NCBI GenBank assembly: GCA_021603905.1
Contig: BQIU01000050.1
Coordinates: 1 to 32,575, forward strand
Origin: Nitrospirales bacterium
GTDB taxonomy: Bacteria; Nitrospirota; Nitrospiria; Nitrospirales; UBA8639
Length of the DNA stretch: 32,575 nt
Direction of reading: 5' to 3'
Both the position numbers and the translations under genes were made by a program. Shown here in pieces: positions 7,464 to 32,575 of this stretch. The notes beneath the pieces were generated by a model, which saw nothing but the letters and a program-made list of their open reading frames with translations, made no database searches and had not been told where the DNA came from. How positions within the stretch are numbered: position 1 is the stretch's first letter; every line of letters begins with the position of its first letter.

Positions 7464-7622
7464 CCTATAGCCGGTTTAAATAAATTCCGCATATTTGAAA
7501 TGAATTATCACGCTGAGTTAGTTGATATGCCCAGCTGGAACGTATTTGGATTCGCTATAGATACCTCAGTCGATGACCTTCAAATACGATGATGCCCTTC
7601 CAGATGTTCAAGTAACACAGCA

Positions 7623-24557: not shown

Positions 24558-24692
24558 AAAAACGTCGCTCGTCGCTCGTCTTTCGTATCTGGTGGAAGAA
24601 AAGAGGATATCGCTCGTATTTGTGAGAAGAGCCTTTGGGCTTTTCTTTGACGCTTCCCGTTCCTCCTTCCACCCCTTACGAACGACGTTTTT
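24558..24692. repeat. 135-bp long imperfect palindrome with 10-bp perfect ends
   Basis: AAAAACGTCG (24558-24567) pairs with CGACGTTTTT (24683-24692). Inward, TTCGTA (24582-24587) pairs with TACGAA (24677-24682), GGTGGAAG (24591-24598) with CTTCCACC (24666-24673), and AGAAGAGCC (24625-24633) with GGCTTTTCT (24638-24646) around a short loop. The left arm contains a 14-base CGT-rich insert not present on the right. It begins directly at the stop of the BtuF-like gene. It shares CGTCG, GCTCGT and TCGTAT words with the palindrome at 2595-2681. The rest of 24693-24863 holds no gene I can support. Confidence 0.7.
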
Positions 24693-24863
24693 CCTCTTGC
24701 CGACTTGTGTTCTCTCTCCCCTATCAGTGTATGATTCTGATCAATATAGCGAAATCAAAAAAGAGCTGGCTGATTCAATCCAACTGACACTGCGCGAGAA
24801 ACCACTTCATAGATACAAAAGTTTACTGGAACGGCTATAACCCGACAGCTTTATCATCGATTC

Positions 24864-27578
24864 ATGACATTCCTCTCCAAAGAACACACGATTCTTGAAA
24901 AAGGCCCGATGGAGTTTCGGCCTTTTGGAATGAATGAAAAAGGCGAGAAAATACGGGATGTGACAGGAATTAAAGTCAGTGCCTATGTGACCCATCTGGA
25001 AGAAAGTGCAATAAAAAACAGTGGGTCCGAAGCCGGCCCTCAAGCCTCAGCCGAGCTCTGCGCTCTCCTGAACGCACGTATTCCTGATCCCACGTATCAT
25101 GTCTCTCCATCGTTTTTAAAGAATATTTGGAACAGCTATTCCTACGAATTTGTCTGCTTTTTGACCGAGTTTTGCCTCCTGATTTCCAAAGATCCGCAAT
25201 TTCAAATTCATGTCGGGAAAACCAAGTATATTTCACCGATTATTCAAACCCTGGGTCGTCCATTCTCTGTGTCCCAAATCTACAAAATGTTTCCACATTT
25301 CGGACAAAAATTTGCGAGAGGTTCAATCCTTTTTGAAGTGGGCACCGTGACCGAAGGAACAGCGATTCTTCGGATGAAATACAACGAGCACGTTTATCAG
25401 CAATTTGGTGCATATCGAAAACGCTGTGCCGACCAAATATGTGAAGTCTCGAAAACCGCACTTTCGGTTGTTCCTCAGCATGTTCACCAGTTGGGACATG
25501 CGACGGTCAAAGATCTCCAATGTATTGCCAATGGTGACGAGTGGTGTGAATGGGAATTTCGTTGGACCCCACCGGCGCAAGTTCCGTTTGGGTGGTCGCT
25601 CGGGGGGATCTTAGCCGGAGTTCTCGCCTTCGGGTATCTTCAGTGGCAGCATCCGACGGTCACGTTCACGGAGGCCTTAATCATTGCCCTGTTCCCACCG
25701 GTGATCGCCTGGTTCTGTACCCAACGCCATCAACAAGTGCATTCGCAGCAACGAGAAGCCTTGATTGTGGAACAACTGGAAACGGTGGAAACTCGTCACG
25801 AGGAACTCCGCGAAGCCTTTCTGGAGCAGGAACATGGCACCGTTGAACTTCGTCGGAAAGTGACGCAACTCACCACCCTTCATCGCGCCGGACTGCTCTT
25901 TAGCGCTACATTGGATCGAGAAACCTTAATTCAAAATGTTCTAAAGACAATCGTTCAAGAGCTGCATTATGACCGGGCCATGATCAGTTTTTACGATCCC
26001 ATACGAAAAGTCTCCCATGATACTCGCGTCTTGGGTCTGTCTGACGACGCTGCACAGTTTGCTCGCTCCCGGGAAATCCCCATATCAGATCCGACGACGA
26101 TCGAAGGACAAGTCGTTTTGAAGGGCGAGCCGGTTCTGCTTGAAAATATCCATGACCATGACGTGTGGGAACGGCTTCACAGCATGAACCAGGAGATGGC
26201 CAAAATCACCAAAGCGACATCGTTGATAGCCGTACCATTAAAAGTGAAGGATAAAGTGATGGGAACTTTGATGGTCGATCGGGTTCAGGGTCCTCTGACC
26301 CAAGATGACTTGGATGTCATGGCTACCGTCGCTACCCAAGTGGCGATTTCCCTCGATAATACAGATGCGTATCATCAAATTGAGGAATTAAATCTAGGGT
26401 TGGAACAGCGAGTGGAGGAACGAACCGCGGAACTCCAGCAGGCCTACGAGGAATTGCAAGAACTTGATCGCCTGAAATCGCAATTCCTCGCACATGTGTC
26501 TCACGAACTTCGCAGCCCGCTGACCAGCATCAAAGGGTTCGCCGAAAATATCTTAGGCGGCGTCACGGGCAGCATTACCGAAAAACAAGAACGGTGCCTT
26601 CAGCGAATCCAAGCCAATAGCAACAGGTTGGCACGAATGATTTCCGACTTGCTCGACCGCGCGCGGCTAGAAGCCGGAAAAATGGAGGTCATACTCAGCG
26701 AAGTGCCCCTGGCTTTACTAACGAAGGAGTGCATTGAAGAGCTGATTCCGCAAGCCGCAGAAAAGCAGCAATCCCTCAGACTAGAATGTCAGGACGATAC
26801 ACTAACGGTACATGCCGATGCAGACAAAATGAGCCAAATACTCATCAATCTGCTCGTGAATGCGATTAAATATACACCGCCTGAAGGTTCGGTGTGTGTC
26901 AAACTCATGCGACTCGATGCCATGTTTGCCAGACTGACGGTCGAAGATACCGGAGAAGGCATTCCTGCGGCTGACCTCCCGGATTTATTTCAACCGTTTT
27001 TCCGCGTCAATCGTCGACACAAAACTCACGTTAAAGGGTTAGGATTAGGCCTCTCGATTGTGAAGCAGCTCGTAGACCTTCAGAACGGGACCATCACTGT
27101 GAAAAGTGAAGTCGGAAAGGGAACAACGTTTCACGTCGATCTTCCACTCGAACCATTGACAGAAAAAAGAACCTCTTCTGACATCAAGTCCACAAAACGC
27201 ATTCTCGTGGTAGACGATGATCCAGATATTTTGGAGCTTGTTGTTGATCGCTTAGAAGGCGACGGGTACCAAGTAGAACCCGCACAGACGGGAGGAGCAG
27301 CACTTGAGGCCATCCAGAAAAGACTCTACGATGGGATTATTTTGGATATTGGCCTGCCGGATACGGACGGCGTACAGATTCTTCAGGCCATTCGACAACA
27401 CTATCCACATCTTCCAGTCGTCATGGTCACAGCCTCTGAATCCAAAGACCGTGCCATGGCCGCCATGGAACGGGGCGCGAATGCATACCTGTTAAAACCT
27501 TTTGATGCGGCTCAATTCAAGTTTGTGACGACTCAATGGTTTGGGAAGAAATCTCACACGGAAACTTCAATAATATAA
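24864..27578 (+). CDS. Hybrid sensor histidine kinase with receiver domain
   Basis: This 904-residue protein has, in order: an N-terminal sensor region (1-235) whose end (GHATVKDLQCIANGDEWCEW, then EFRW) resembles the C-terminal part of V4R/heme-NO-binding-like domains; two membrane spans (about 242-258 and 268-285); a coiled coil; a GAF domain (about 338-500); a second coiled coil (EQRVEERTAELQQAYEEL); HisKA with H547 in HVSHELRSPLTS; HATPase (DADKMSQILINLLVNAIKYT, DTGEGIP, GLGLGLSIVKQL); and a receiver domain (VVDDDPDI, phospho-acceptor D828, K in LLKPF). It senses in the cytoplasm and phosphorylates itself and its receiver. It is an orphan: no partner regulator adjoins it. The start is uncertain; ATG 24909 with AAAAAGG nearby is an alternative. 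Confidence 0.9.
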   Translation: MTFLSKEHTILEKGPMEFRPFGMNEKGEKIRDVTGIKVSAYVTHLEESAIKNSGSEAGPQASAELCALLNARIPDPTYHVSPSFLKNIWNSYSYEFVCFLTEFCLLISKDPQFQIHVGKTKYISPIIQTLGRPFSVSQIYKMFPHFGQKFARGSILFEVGTVTEGTAILRMKYNEHVYQQFGAYRKRCADQICEVSKTALSVVPQHVHQLGHATVKDLQCIANGDEWCEWEFRWTPPAQVPFGWSLGGILAGVLAFGYLQWQHPTVTFTEALIIALFPPVIAWFCTQRHQQVHSQQREALIVEQLETVETRHEELREAFLEQEHGTVELRRKVTQLTTLHRAGLLFSATLDRETLIQNVLKTIVQELHYDRAMISFYDPIRKVSHDTRVLGLSDDAAQFARSREIPISDPTTIEGQVVLKGEPVLLENIHDHDVWERLHSMNQEMAKITKATSLIAVPLKVKDKVMGTLMVDRVQGPLTQDDLDVMATVATQVAISLDNTDAYHQIEELNLGLEQRVEERTAELQQAYEELQELDRLKSQFLAHVSHELRSPLTSIKGFAENILGGVTGSITEKQERCLQRIQANSNRLARMISDLLDRARLEAGKMEVILSEVPLALLTKECIEELIPQAAEKQQSLRLECQDDTLTVHADADKMSQILINLLVNAIKYTPPEGSVCVKLMRLDAMFARLTVEDTGEGIPAADLPDLFQPFFRVNRRHKTHVKGLGLGLSIVKQLVDLQNGTITVKSEVGKGTTFHVDLPLEPLTEKRTSSDIKSTKRILVVDDDPDILELVVDRLEGDGYQVEPAQTGGAALEAIQKRLYDGIILDIGLPDTDGVQILQAIRQHYPHLPVVMVTASESKDRAMAAMERGANAYLLKPFDAAQFKFVTTQWFGKKSHTETSII

Positions 27579-27658
27579 CGCTATCCCATTCTCCCAGTGG
27601 TGCTTCGACCACCTTGGACACACCACCCCAAATCCTGCCAGTTAATAAGAAATCATAC

Positions 27659-27683
27659 AAATCCCCCTATGCATTGGGGGAAT
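27659..27683 (+). terminator. GC hairpin downstream of the kinase
   Basis: TCCCCC pairs with GGGGGA around TATGCATT, flanked by AA/TT. It is 81 bases after the kinase stop. Only a broken T-rich stretch follows (aattgtcagttttc), so termination would be moderate. Confidence 0.45.
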
Positions 27684-27805
27684 TGTCAGTTTTCTTACTC
27701 ACAACAATTATGCGATATTCAGTTAACGATAGCTTAGATGAGAAATAACACCACTGAACTTTTTCTTTTTCATCTGATTTTCTACTAACTAAAATACAGT
27801 TGTTA

Positions 27806-27822
27806 TTGGCATGATGTTTGCT
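27806..27822 (+). promoter_or_regulatory. Sigma-54 (RpoN) promoter, copy 1
   Basis: TTGGCATGATGTTTGCT matches the -24/-12 consensus YTGGCACGNNNNTTGCW with one change (C to T). The invariant GG (27808-27809) and GC (27820-27821) have the required 10-bp spacing. Transcription would begin near 27833. The next open frame starts at 27905. A sigma-54 promoter needs an activator with a GAFTGA loop, and none is encoded in this window. Confidence 0.65.
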
Positions 27823-27904
27823 GTATCTTGAATTATAGAGGTTTTTCAACAAAAATAGTCGTTTTTTCGATGTTTTTTTACCACACTGTAGAGAATTTGA
27901 GACA

Positions 27905-28196
27905 ATGAATCACCCTGAAGAACATTCAAACGAACAAGTTGGAGACCAAGAAAGCGACGACCCTTTACCTACTATCACACAAAAGGATTCGATCATGTCA
28001 GACGCCACGTCACATAAACCCTTCTCTCTCTCCTGCTGGTGGTCTCGCGGACCTTCCGGGCAAGTTCAGGAATGGGAATCAAGACCAACCCCCCCTCAGA
28101 ATCCACCCCGAGCGCATAATGAACGCCACCGCCCAAGCTCAGCTCGTTGGAAACGAAATACTAGGACACAAAATACAACAAAAGCATAACCAATAG
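27905..28196 (+). other. Possible small, frameshifted gene downstream of the sigma-54 promoter
   Basis: Two overlapping frames are open here. The first (ATG 27905) starts MNHPEEHSNEQVGDQESDDP and is acidic and hydrophilic but becomes Trp/Arg/Pro-rich and shadow-like after about 40 codons. The second (to 28196) is more protein-like in its latter part: INPSLSPAGGLADLPGKFRN, then HPERIMNATAQAQLVGNEIL. A single shift near 28010-28020 would join the acidic start to this tail and give one protein of about 96 residues. I recognise no family. It is the first possible gene after the sigma-54 promoter at 27806. This could equally be two chance frames. Confidence 0.25.
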
Positions 28197-28373
28197 ATCT
28201 CTCTGCTCTGCCCAATTTGGCCGTTGACACATCCACCTATACTTTGACGAGTGGTGTGAGAGCCGAAAACCGTTTATTTTGACATCAAACCACACGGGAC
28301 TCTAGCGCTTTACACAGACCTCTGTACCCAGCCTTCACTCATTCAGTAGATATTCCCTTCCTTCACAAGGGGT

Positions 28374-29440
28374 TATAGCGAATCCAAATATAAGTTCCAG
28401 CTGCAACCTAGACGACGATTGTTGTGTTATCCTGCGTAACCTCAATAGGCAACTGACGTTCAACGCGGGTCTACTCCTGATGTGTCGACTTGAGGTCGCC
28501 TTGGCGACGATCATTGTCTCCCTAACGGAAATCCGAAGCGGCATGCAACGTTGAACCGAGTCTTCCCTCTGAGGTGTCGATGACAGGTCGCCTTGGCGAC
28601 GATCATTGTCTCCTTAACGGAGATCCGAATCGGCATGCAACGTTGAACCGAGTCTTCCCTCTGAGGTGTCAATGACAGGTCGCCAAGCCCGCGCGATTAC
28701 TTACTTCAAACATGCGAAGTTATAGCCGTACCATTGAACACTCGCCTGTACGATTTGTGTGGTTGCGTTGTGTATTATAGTCAATTCGGTTGAACGCTCT
28801 GCGGTTTCGCTATAATTGAAACGGCAATAACCAAAACCTCAGTTGTTGACCTCTATAGTCAAGTCTCATCATTCTGAACCTACATATTGGTTGAAAGTTA
28901 ATAGGCTTGGACACGATGAACTGAAAGGCCTTGCCCCCTTCACAGACTTTCAACATTGATCATTCAATTAGCCATTTGACATACGGCTTAGAGGCGTTCA
29001 AGTCCAGTTGAATTGCGAAAGGAAGCCTAGTCTACCTGGTTGCTTACCCTAGGCATAGTTGAATGGACAGACCCTGTTTCTCTACTGTGGAGTAGATTAG
29101 AAGTAGCCTAGGCGACGGTTGGTGCAACCCTCTAGTAGGATTGAATCGGCTGCCAATGGTGAGACCTGTTTGCCTCTGGAGTGTTGGTTATAGATCGCCT
29201 GTACGCCTCAAACATCGGAAGATTATACCCGCTTGGATTATAGTGAATACAAATACGCTCCAGCTCAACCATGAGTACTTTCAACGCGATATCCCATGTG
29301 TCAAAAATACGAAAAATCATTGAATCGGCTATAACTGGCAATGATTGACGTTTGATCTCACGTATTGGATGTCAAACTTGTACAAGTTGGCGCTTTATCG
29401 TTTCGGTATAACTGAAACGGCTATAAGAGGCACGCCTAAA
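28374..29440. repeat. Non-coding mosaic repeat region with recurrent TATAG/CTATA words
   Basis: About 1.07 kb with no credible gene. Segments recur in shuffled order. One is TTATAGxGAATxCAAATA...TCCAGCTxxAACC (28374 and 29235). Another is TCAAACATxxGAAGxTTATAxCCG (28705 and 29207). A third is GTTTCGxTATAAxTGAAACGGC (28803 and 29399), itself a GTTTC/GAAAC inverted repeat. TCGCCTGTACG (28742 and 29196) and TTCAACGCG also occur twice. About ten TTATAG/CTATAA words occur. An inverted repeat GTTGAAAGT/ACTTTCAAC spans 28890-28954. The region lies between two sigma-54 promoters. It may be degenerate mobile DNA or a template for structured RNA. Confidence 0.6.
28494..28684 (+). repeat. 92-bp tandem repeat, two full copies plus partial flanks
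   Basis: GGTCGCC recurs at 28494, 28586 and 28678, a period of 92 bp. The two full units differ at only a few positions. Each unit contains GTCGCC-TT-GGCGAC (perfect 6-bp hairpin) and TCTCC-TTAAC-GGAGA (perfect in unit 2; one base changed in unit 1). A third copy begins but diverges after GGTCGCC, and a diverged flank (TGTGTCGA) precedes unit 1. There are no spacers, so this is not CRISPR. Confidence 0.85.
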
Positions 29441-29629
29441 ACTTGCGGGCAATCTTTTCATTTGAACTTCCCCATGGAAGGGAAAGGCCTTCAATGCATA
29501 CAGGAAACTTGCCGAGACCTAGGCAAATGCTGGCTCAGGCCTACACATTCCCTTTTTTATCCATTTCGCATAAAACAAAAAAAATACGGAAAAACAATGG
29601 CCTATAGCATCTCAAAACAAATTAACAAG

Positions 29630-29646
29630 TTGGCATCTTGGTTGCT
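29630..29646 (+). promoter_or_regulatory. Sigma-54 (RpoN) promoter, copy 2, before the AAA+ gene
   Basis: TTGGCATCTTGGTTGCT has GG (29632-29633) and GC (29644-29645) exactly 10 bp apart and matches TTGGCAY....TTGCT. The start of transcription would be near 29657, giving a 35-base leader before ATG 29692. The core TTGGCAT...TTGCT is shared with copy 1 at 27806, so the two are probably co-regulated. Confidence 0.6.
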
Positions 29647-29691
29647 TATTCATAATTCTTGTGATGCATCAAAACAAAAGGAACCAATTCC

Positions 29692-30519
29692 ATGCCTACT
29701 GATACGCTTTTCCACTCGATCAAGGAGCCACACCCCCAACGCGCAGTTGAAACCCTTATCGGTCAGGGGACACGTTTTATCGAACTTCTGGATCAACTTC
29801 GCCTCGTGGCACAAGCTGATTGTCGCGTCCTACTTATTGGAGAAAAAGGCAGCGGGAAAGCCACATTAGCACGCCGCATTCATGACCAGAGTATTCGAGG
29901 ACAATCTCCTTTCTACAGACTACACTGCGCAACCTTCCTCCCCAATAGTTCACAGCACCCTTTACAAATTTGGAACAAAGAGGAATGTTCGCCTTCGTCC
30001 GACCACAGGGAACGCCCTCTCGACTTAAACCGCGGCTGCACACTGTATCTTCATGAGGTTGGAGCACTGACGTCAGAAGCGCAAACTTGGCTTCTTCGCA
30101 CTCTCTTAACCATAGAAATGGAATTGTTGAATCGACCAAATTATGACCGAGAAGACCAAATTCGGATTATTGCCGGAACATCGCAAGACTTACAGGTAGA
30201 AATGGCTAAAGGGCGATTTCGGACGGAACTGTTCTATCGCTTGAATGTGGTTCCCCTACACATTCCGCCTCTTCGTCATCGACCTGAAGACATCGAGGCA
30301 TTCGTCTTACATTTTGTCAAAATGTATGCGAAAAAATACGACAAACACATTGATCAAATAAGCGACCAAACCTATCAGGTGCTCATGGACTATGGCTGGC
30401 CTGGGAATATTACAGAAATGCAGTACCTACTTGAAAAAGCGACGATCTTATCAAAAAATGGCATCGTTCATATTGAACAGATTGCCCATGACCCCCCAAA
30501 TTTCCCCCTCCATTCCTAG
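29692..30519 (+). CDS. Degenerate sigma-54-activator-type AAA+ protein without GAFTGA loop or HTH
   Basis: The 275-residue protein is the AAA+ core of bacterial enhancer-binding proteins: Walker A GEKGSGKAT (50-58), RIIAGTSQDL, MAKGRFRTELFYRLNVVPLH, IPPLRHRPEDIEAFVLHFV and YGWPGNITEM. Several functional residues are lost. The GAFTGA loop that contacts sigma-54 is replaced by IWNKEECSPSSDHRERPLDL. Walker B has HE (121-122) instead of DE. The sensor II GNVRE is GNITE. No receiver or other sensor domain precedes it and no Fis-type HTH follows. It probably cannot open sigma-54 promoters and may be a regulator by binding, an antagonist or a decaying gene. Oddly, a sigma-54 promoter lies just upstream. 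The ribosome site is GGA, nine bases from ATG. Confidence 0.75.
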   Translation: MPTDTLFHSIKEPHPQRAVETLIGQGTRFIELLDQLRLVAQADCRVLLIGEKGSGKATLARRIHDQSIRGQSPFYRLHCATFLPNSSQHPLQIWNKEECSPSSDHRERPLDLNRGCTLYLHEVGALTSEAQTWLLRTLLTIEMELLNRPNYDREDQIRIIAGTSQDLQVEMAKGRFRTELFYRLNVVPLHIPPLRHRPEDIEAFVLHFVKMYAKKYDKHIDQISDQTYQVLMDYGWPGNITEMQYLLEKATILSKNGIVHIEQIAHDPPNFPLHS

Positions 30520-30560
30520 AAGAGGTCTTCTTCTCATACAACAGCCTTGTGCGTTCGACT

Positions 30561-30576
30561 GACACAGAGTTGTGTC
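30561..30576 (+). terminator. Small hairpins after the AAA+ gene
   Basis: GACACA (30561-30566) pairs with TGTGTC (30571-30576) around GAGT and is followed by TTTCT. A second hairpin (CCCTTTGC with GCGAAAGGG) lies at 30586-30605. Either could end the AAA+ transcript, but both are weak. The remainder of 30520-30727 shows nothing else. Confidence 0.35.
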
Positions 30577-30727
30577 TTTCTAAAACCCTTTGCGATGCGA
30601 AAGGGAAGTGATAGATAGAGCTGACTCCAGGAGACGGACACGAAGCCATGTCTGTTCGAAAAATTTCTGCATGAAACGTGTGAACGCTGCGTCAAGGTAG
30701 GAGATGAAAAAGGAAAGAGGAAAAGTT

Positions 30728-31548: not shown

Positions 31549-32575
31549 TTAAGACTGAGGCGTTGCCGATGCCTCAAGATTGCCTCGAGACTTGAGACCA
31601 TGATGGAGAAAAATGGATACACTATTTGCAGAATTATTCGCGATGGCTAAGCCTGGCTGTTCGTTTCGTCCTGCCGCCACAACTAATGAGGTCAAGGCAA
31701 ACGGTCCATAGGGAGTTGGATAATGCTTAGGGGGATAGTGAAAGGTTCCATCACCTTTTCCGAATAACAACGACATACTTCCCGACTGAATATTGACCAC
31801 CGCCACATCAGACATCTTATCACCATCAAAATCATAGGCTAAGCCCTGATTTGGCCCGGCATCACCTCCGGAGTCTTTGCCTTCCTGAAATGTTCCGTCT
31901 CCGTTTCCAAGAAACACGGTAATCGTATTCATCTCGCCGTTGACGACTAATAAGTCCAGGTTTCGATCACTATTGAAATCGGCGAATGAAACCCCAAGTG
32001 GCCGCTTGCCTGTGCGATAATCTGTCGGCGATTCAAAGGTGCCATCACCGTTTCCTGGCCAGATAGACACGGCATGGCTCATTGGCCCTCCATTACTCAC
32101 AGCCAAATCAAGGTGGTCATCCCCATTAAAGTCGGCCGTCTTCACAGAAGTGGGCGTATCGCCATATTCGTAGAGTGCTCCAAGTCGAAACTTCCCGGTC
32201 CCCATGCCCAACAGAACTTGGAGTTTATCATTCCGCAGAGCAACGACTAGGTCGGGCAACATATCCTCATTATAATCACCATACGCAATATCAACCGGTG
32301 TCCGGTGGACAGGATACTGTGCCCCACGAGTAAAGTTCCCATTCCCTTCACCAAGAAAGATCAAGACCTGATTGCTTCCTGAGCAGGCGACGGCTAAATC
32401 CACCCGTCGATCCATGTTGAAATCAACAATCGCTAAATTCCTTGGTTCCTGACACGCTTTCACCGTCCGTTGATCTTGAAAGCTTCCATCACCATTTCCC
32501 ATCAAAATGGACAATGAGTTTTCTTGAATATTACTCGTAATGAGATCAGAATACCCATCGCCATTCAAATCGCCT
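31549..32575 (-). CDS. FG-GAP/VCBS repeat protein, 5' end beyond the window
   Basis: The visible 340 residues are a run of beta-propeller repeats of about 50 residues with calcium-type DxNxDxxxDL loops: DFNMDRRVDLAVA, DYNEDMLPDLVVA, DFNGDDHLDLAVS, DFNSDRNLDLLVV and DFDGDKMSDVAVV. These alternate with VxIxLGxGDGTFQ strands. Such proteins are usually secreted or surface bound and resemble integrin alpha-chain propellers. The frame continues GDLNGDG to the last base, so the true start, and any signal peptide, lies outside. The last blade (LTSLVVAAGRNEQPGLAIAN) is degenerate. The C-terminus (HHGLKSRGNLEASATPQS) is short, with no anchor. Confidence 0.85.
   Translation of the reverse strand, partial: GDLNGDGYSDLITSNIQENSLSILMGNGDGSFQDQRTVKACQEPRNLAIVDFNMDRRVDLAVACSGSNQVLIFLGEGNGNFTRGAQYPVHRTPVDIAYGDYNEDMLPDLVVALRNDKLQVLLGMGTGKFRLGALYEYGDTPTSVKTADFNGDDHLDLAVSNGGPMSHAVSIWPGNGDGTFESPTDYRTGKRPLGVSFADFNSDRNLDLLVVNGEMNTITVFLGNGDGTFQEGKDSGGDAGPNQGLAYDFDGDKMSDVAVVNIQSGSMSLLFGKGDGTFHYPPKHYPTPYGPFALTSLVVAAGRNEQPGLAIANNSANSVSIFLHHGLKSRGNLEASATPQS

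Follow-up and report, generated by a model that had tools for sequence, protein, structure and literature searches.

A conserved putative sigma-54 locus and a probably unrelated accumulation of partly nested, TA-inserting miniature elements in a Nitrospirales bacterium

We analysed a contig of 32 575 nucleotides from a Nitrospirales bacterium (the window, below) and consider it likely that two unrelated things overlap in it: a conserved sigma-54 locus, and an accumulation of ~94-bp TA-inserting miniature elements that are partly nested in one another. Promoter 1 of the locus would drive a gene for a small protein and promoter 2 a gene for a sigma-54-activator-like AAA+ protein. An enhancer-binding protein encoded elsewhere probably switches on both, with a possible link to the hybrid kinase encoded upstream, and the repeat block between the promoters would be a chance accumulation outside the sigma-54 circuit. 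New here are a nested variant of TA-inserting MITEs and a sigma-54 small-protein/pseudo-activator locus.

The window belongs to a genome of 4.74 Mb in 203 contigs, 91% complete (G000). The genus comparison set has five genomes, G000 itself and G001, G002, G003 and G004; the closest MAGs by the AAA+ gene are Nitrospirales bacterium NPIRA04 (G004, 93% identical), NPIRA02 (G003, 71%) and OFTM51 (G002, 58%). A plasmid search with 27580-30600 as the query gave no match. The features are collected in Table 1.

Table 1. Positions in the window of the regulatory locus and of the repeat units, with the evidence for each
Feature	Position	Strand	Basis
Single 94-bp MITE unit	7466..7559	-	Absent from G003
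Degenerate 95-bp MITE-like unit in non-conserved ORF	24745..24839	+	No counterpart stretch in G003, G002, G001
Hybrid histidine kinase (GAF-HisKA-HATPase-receiver)	24864..27578	+	Pfam; orthologue, same order, in G003, G002, G001
Predicted sigma-54 promoter 1, TTGGCATGATGTTTGCT	27806..27822	+	Pattern match; aligned sites in G003, G001, G002
Leader with conserved ACACTGAAGA-type stretch, 5' of small gene	27843..27904	+	Four-species alignment
Small protein gene, 64 aa, motif W..RG..G.V.EWE.R	27995..28189	+	Orthologues in 5/5 genus genomes
Composite MITE A, 456 bp, TATAGCGAATCC...GAAACGGCAATA, in GTTAAC with TA duplication	28374..28829	+	G004 empty site
94-bp inner unit of composite A, TATAGCCGTACC...GGTTTCGCTATA	28721..28814	+	First removal step leaves GAAGTTAATTGAAACGG, as in single-unit copies
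Native spacer (~57 bp) between two insertions	28830..28886	.	Shared with G004; 28845-28886 aligns to L072 441-482
Composite MITE B, right end GAAACGGCTATA at 29425	about 28887..29425, left limit uncertain	+	End matches
Inner unit TATACC...GGTATA in composite B, itself interrupted by the 29239..29333 unit	29224..29410	+	Absent from shorter copies, same point
Innermost 95-bp unit TATAGTGAATAC...GAATCGGCTATA, nested in the 29224-29410 unit at GGAT/ACTG	29239..29333	+	Uninterrupted copies
Conserved block TAGGCAAATGCTGGCN5CCTACAC, ~100 bp upstream of promoter 2	29520..29546	.	Five-species alignment; weaker in G001
Predicted sigma-54 promoter 2, TTGGCATCTTGGTTGCT	29630..29646	+	Conserved in 5/5 genus genomes
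Sigma-54-activator-like AAA+ protein, 275 aa, without GAFTGA, Walker-B Asp-Glu, HTH	29692..30519	+	Pfam; five-orthologue alignment; dN/dS

Results

The sigma-54 locus and its promoters

A preliminary description of this DNA had proposed a compact regulatory locus (kinase, promoter 1, small gene, promoter 2, AAA+ gene), and comparison within the genus supports this: the order kinase, small gene, AAA+ gene is identical in G003, G002 and G001, and the promoters are conserved. The G004 contig is truncated; it begins 3' of promoter 1 and carries the small gene and the AAA+ gene.

The two 17-mers picked out earlier as promoters lie exactly at 27806-27822 and 29630-29646, and both fit the pattern TTGGCAYNNNNNTTGCT (GG-N10-GC). 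The pattern has only these two matches in the window, against a mean of 0.00 in 100 dinucleotide shuffles, and 17 matches in the whole genome (13 forward, 4 reverse), against 0 and 1 for a reversed control pattern. The gene rpoN, on whose presence the earlier promoter assignment depended, is found in the genome as a 508-aa open frame. At promoter 1 the site is present in G001 (TGGCACAAGCATTGCT), is a near match in G003 (TTGGCACCATACTTGCC, with TTGCC at the −12 end) and is degenerate in G002 (TAGCATATTTTTTGCT, AG for GG); the position is beyond the contig end in G004. With a GG-N10-GC core at each site and rpoN in the genome, both appear to be genuine sigma-54 promoters. The conserved block upstream of promoter 2 is a candidate enhancer or activator site.

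We note some further sigma-54 sites and signals. At 27660-27684, downstream of the kinase and before promoter 1, is the palindrome AATCCCCCTATGCATTGGGGGAATT, possibly a terminator stem or else a site for an activator. Elsewhere in the genome some of the sites stand just 5' of genes that, from translations read by eye, we take to be flagellar-rod-like, FliL-like and sugar-epimerase-like. Reading by eye also gives one site (L042, G000:C29:24989) preceding a gene whose product has a PEP-CTERM-like tail, and further sites preceding epimerase- and glycosyltransferase-like genes, a hint of a sigma-54 surface-polysaccharide regulon.

A small protein family with upstream sigma-54 sites

The gene 3' of promoter 1 had been suspected of being frameshifted. 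It is intact: the frame 27995-28189 is matched by an open orthologue in each of the four remaining genus genomes and has an AAAGGA ribosome-binding-like site before its ATG at 27995, and an in-frame upstream ATG at 27905 would give a protein of 94 aa. Its dN/dS values (Nei-Gojobori, our own script) are 0.15 against G004 and 0.08, 0.35 and 0.16 against G003, G002 and G001, synonymous change being near saturation in these last three comparisons; the gene is under purifying selection.

A profile of nine members of this family (A2) was searched against 196 genomes of the order and matched 24 of them at E <= 0.001. Three matches are marginal and 21 strong (E < 1e-15), the latter in five genomes of the window's genus and 16 of genus g9; the match in G030 is interrupted by one TGA. 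Nineteen of the strong hits could be tested for an upstream promoter, G004 having no upstream sequence and G094 being missed by the motif expression. In 16 of the 19, the 320 bp upstream of the motif include a strict sigma-54 site, compared with 30 of 1936 background segments. G003, with its near match, is among the three others; the small genes of G002 and G092 have no upstream sigma-54 site by the patterns used. The g9 genomes that were testable and new to the upstream-site search have the site in six of seven cases, and because the genomes are related, none of these counts are of independent events.

The small protein has no Pfam or NCBIfam family match. One of the nine A2 members matched PIMT_C at E 0.17, which we take as chance. 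Outside the genus, a receiver-domain gene or stretch is found upstream of the small gene in G018, G012 and G032; the upstream gene is a different one in G024 and G030, and we therefore claim no fixed partner for the small gene.

A maintained AAA+ protein missing activator motifs

The protein encoded 3' of promoter 2 matches the sigma-54 interaction domain (PF00158, Sigma54_activat) at 6e-29, together with the lid, and its orthologues are 93, 71, 58 and 50% identical to it. Walker A (GE.GSGK), which with this AAA+ domain marks an enhancer-binding protein, is invariant in the five orthologues, as is the RFR.ELFYRLN region, which we take to be the arginine-finger region. The protein had been called a defective activator, and the part of that claim concerning activator motifs stands. 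Nothing aligns as a GAFTGA loop in any of the five orthologues; the Asp-Glu of Walker B is missing, being HE in four and DG in one; and all five end just after the lid, the Pfam scan of the window protein giving no HTH family. The gene, however, is maintained, with dN/dS of 0.15 against G004, 0.13 against G003 and 0.11 against G002 (synonymous change near-saturated in the last two comparisons; not computable for G001). Since orthologues in five species share the losses and show purifying selection, it is not a decaying copy.

A dispersed family of TA-bounded units

The block between the promoters is indeed repeat-rich, as had been described. Rather than being local to the promoters, its repeats are dispersed in the genome: positions 28200-29600 have at least 80 matches in G000 at E <= 1 (40 of 159 first-look candidates scored), a number that includes the block itself and often several matches per locus. 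DNA similarity to the block was found in all five genus genomes and in none of 16 others. The left end TATAGCGAATCCAA, with one mismatch allowed, occurs at 162 places in G000 (reversed control, 0) and at 41, 29, 124 and 99 places in G001, G002, G003 and G004; each of the 16 other genomes has 0-3, and the reversed-pattern control also gives 0-3 per genome. The right end, with two mismatches allowed, occurs at 70 places in G000 (control, 0).

Copies of minimal length, such as 7466-7559, span 93-95 bp and have imperfect inverted repeats of ~23 bp; when 12 minimal units were compared with their own reverse complements, 15.9 of 23 end positions matched on average, against 5.9 when shuffled. These units are thus short and non-coding with terminal inverted repeats, as MITEs are, and the target site duplication of MITEs is seen on comparing composite A with G004, which has a single TA in GTTAAC. 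Removing 28376-28829 from the window leaves GGGGTTAACC, and the orthologous G004 site reads GGGTTAACC. This empty site confirms TA insertion and duplication for the block. At the orthologous site in G003, G002 and G001 no similarity to the block was found (blastn, E <= 1e-3). Where the window has the single unit 7466-7559, the length of the G003 site is that predicted for a single TA; its bases have diverged.

The flanks of the copies tell of the target. We first set aside 24 nested inner copies, those with a right flank that starts with ACTG. Among the 62 non-nested copies, the two bases directly flanking TATA...TATA are complementary in 53, against 29.7 expected (C-G 33, T-A 19, A-T 1), and outer positions 2, 3 and 4 are complementary in 10, 19 and 20, against 8.3, 17.2 and 16.0 expected. 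Such a pattern would result if elements entered the TA of CTAG or TTAA and duplicated it. A CTAG preference has reportedly been seen for IS630.

Some observations bear on single copies or on the rest of the window. On another contig (G000:C70:16869-17288; L073, L046) a strong sigma-54 site lies ~130 bp upstream of a 273-bp repeat copy, and no same-strand ORF of at least 40 aa starts within 350 bp downstream; a promoter-repeat link is possible there, or chance. The predicted 82-aa ORF at 24592-24840, which holds the degenerate unit and has no Pfam match, is probably not a gene. A 21-bp tandem repeat at 287-379 (4.4 copies, 94% matches) falls within ORF 35-1321, for which Pfam gives matches to carbohydrate-binding-like domains, and an FG-GAP repeat protein encoded on the minus strand at 31549-32568 runs up to the contig end, past which it may extend.

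A length ladder and nested units

The distances from left end to nearest right end form a ladder. In 86 copies (the loci in hand, not all 162 left ends, with two right ends, at L277 and L284, counted twice) they fall near 95, 187, 280, 370, 460, 552 and 645; one more right end lies at 737. Their mean distance from a ladder of period 92.5 is 6.4, against 22.6 for uniform lengths, a descriptive statistic since these data also supplied the period.

Copies of one, two and three units, when aligned, show a ~93-bp TATACC...GGTATA unit inserted at a single position within the basic unit, and elsewhere in the basic unit an insert of a second type, its ends resembling CTAGGCGAC...GTCGCCTAG. When inner units bounded by TATA are removed, 10 of 13 copies of 184-189 bp shrink to 93-96 bp, and over 63 composites 44 such removals are possible, against 9.55 in shuffles. 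As for the innermost unit of composite B, uninterrupted counterparts of the 29224-29410 unit that holds it are found, for example GGATGTACTG (L079), GGATTTACTG (L080) and GGATTGACTG (L103). Under the TATA rule 21 of the 63 composites are irreducible and only two exceed one step, and the window block itself reduces only from 1052 to 866 bp, with a doubtful second step at its right end; other unit types or tandem duplication must therefore contribute too. Composite A contains a 92-bp tandem repeat; the pair, at 28456-28639, could have arisen by tandem duplication or by insertions repeated at the borders of units. Nesting is well supported for the one insert type, and for the rest we infer it. 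New copies often land inside older ones, and composites would therefore grow in ~93-bp steps.

Discussion

The insertion of elements into one another can be read unusually well in this repeat family, through its length ladder and the empty site of a relative, and the family could show how intergenic DNA expands in uncultured relatives of nitrite oxidisers. The small-protein family, which lies outside Pfam and NCBIfam, offers a clean sigma-54 target for study.

Two other interpretations of the block deserve consideration. In the preliminary description, promoter 1 was suggested as the possible source of a long structured RNA that spans the repeats and functions within the regulatory locus. Promoter 1 does point into the block, and a read-through transcript could be structured because the block holds inverted repeats. 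What lies directly 3' of promoter 1, however, is a conserved protein gene. The block is not conserved at its site, since G003, G002 and G001 have nothing similar there and G004 has only the native spacer; its units are dispersed mobile elements that occur at many other loci as well; and Rfam, at gathering scores, gives 0 matches in the whole window. A conserved long RNA is not supported, and we regard this interpretation as very improbable. A somewhat less remote idea, though still quite improbable, is that the repeats are palindromes of the REP/BIME type, dispersed by a RAYT (Y1) transposase, or else tandem arrays generated by recombination. High copy number and the tandem 92-bp copies would suit it, but the units, 93-95 bp long, have inverted ends that match and TATA borders that are fixed, G004 shows just one TA at its empty site, and the complementarity of the outer bases fits a palindromic TA target. 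These points all favor TA-inserting miniature elements.

For the AAA+ protein the question is one of role. Given the motifs that it has and those it has not, it is unlikely itself to activate sigma-54 polymerase and would more likely modulate other activators, for example by joining their rings. A specific form of this idea, which we offer tentatively and think unlikely as it stands, is that a kept pseudo-activator poisons the rings of real sigma-54 activators as a feedback brake, with the small protein (W..RG..G.V.EWE.R) as its adaptor; for a protein that is without the parts for activating sigma-54 polymerase and yet is predicted to be sigma-54-promoted, the idea is directly testable. Alternatively, the protein could be a sigma-70 regulator like GAFTGA-less NtrC, and not a modulator of sigma-54 activators at all. 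GAFTGA-less NtrC proteins are known to be active at sigma-70 promoters, according to the available passages of PMC10274813, but those relatives act at target promoters, and the AAA+ protein has neither receiver nor DNA-binding domain; we hold this alternative to be decidedly unlikely.

As to mobilisation, the ~94-bp elements would insert at TA, prefer palindromic CTAG or TTAA and duplicate the TA, as IS630/Tc1-mariner transposases do. No IS630-type transposase (PF13358) was found in G000, which is 91% complete. The PF13358 search covered five genomes, G004 not among them; G002 gave one hit, at a contig edge, and G003 gave a fragment. A search for the repeat-end motifs near these two hits gave no clear matching ends.

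Among known systems, the AAA+ protein resembles the NtrC of Caulobacter and Rhodobacter and the VpsR of V. cholerae in having the AAA+ sigma-54-interaction fold without the GAFTGA loop; it differs from these, as they appear in passages of PMC10274813, in having no receiver or DNA-binding domain, an altered Walker B and its own predicted sigma-54 promoter. For the repeat family, within mainly non-subscription literature, the passages available from PMC12342949 and PMC12306157 contain no description, and in those of PMC12306157 Nitrospira appears solely in a table of REP counts. Transposases of the IS630 family insert at TA and duplicate it (passages of PMC2170065), and RUP/IS630-Spn1 and IS630/Tc1-mariner share the TA target and TA duplication with the window repeats (passages of PMC2170065 and PMC2229807). 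In contrast to RUP with IS630-Spn1, no autonomous partner of the window repeats was found in their own genome. The Correia elements (CREE) of Neisseria, as given in passages of PMC5039591 and PMC2229807, are short and non-coding (~107 and ~155 bp), with TATAG-starting inverted repeats of 24-26 bp and terminal TA, and average 92-249 copies per genome by species. We considered whether the window repeats are Correia elements and rejected this: the 26-bp Correia repeat TATAGTGGATTAA... is not found, the ends differ after TATAG, and the inverted repeat of the window is TATAGCGAATCCAAATAA... instead. Resemblances to Correia, on the evidence of the same passages, are that the window repeats are short and non-coding, have TATAG-starting inverted repeats and TA termini, and occur in many copies; unlike Correia, they form a ~93-bp stacking ladder and, among 21 genomes searched by DNA similarity, match only the five of this genus.
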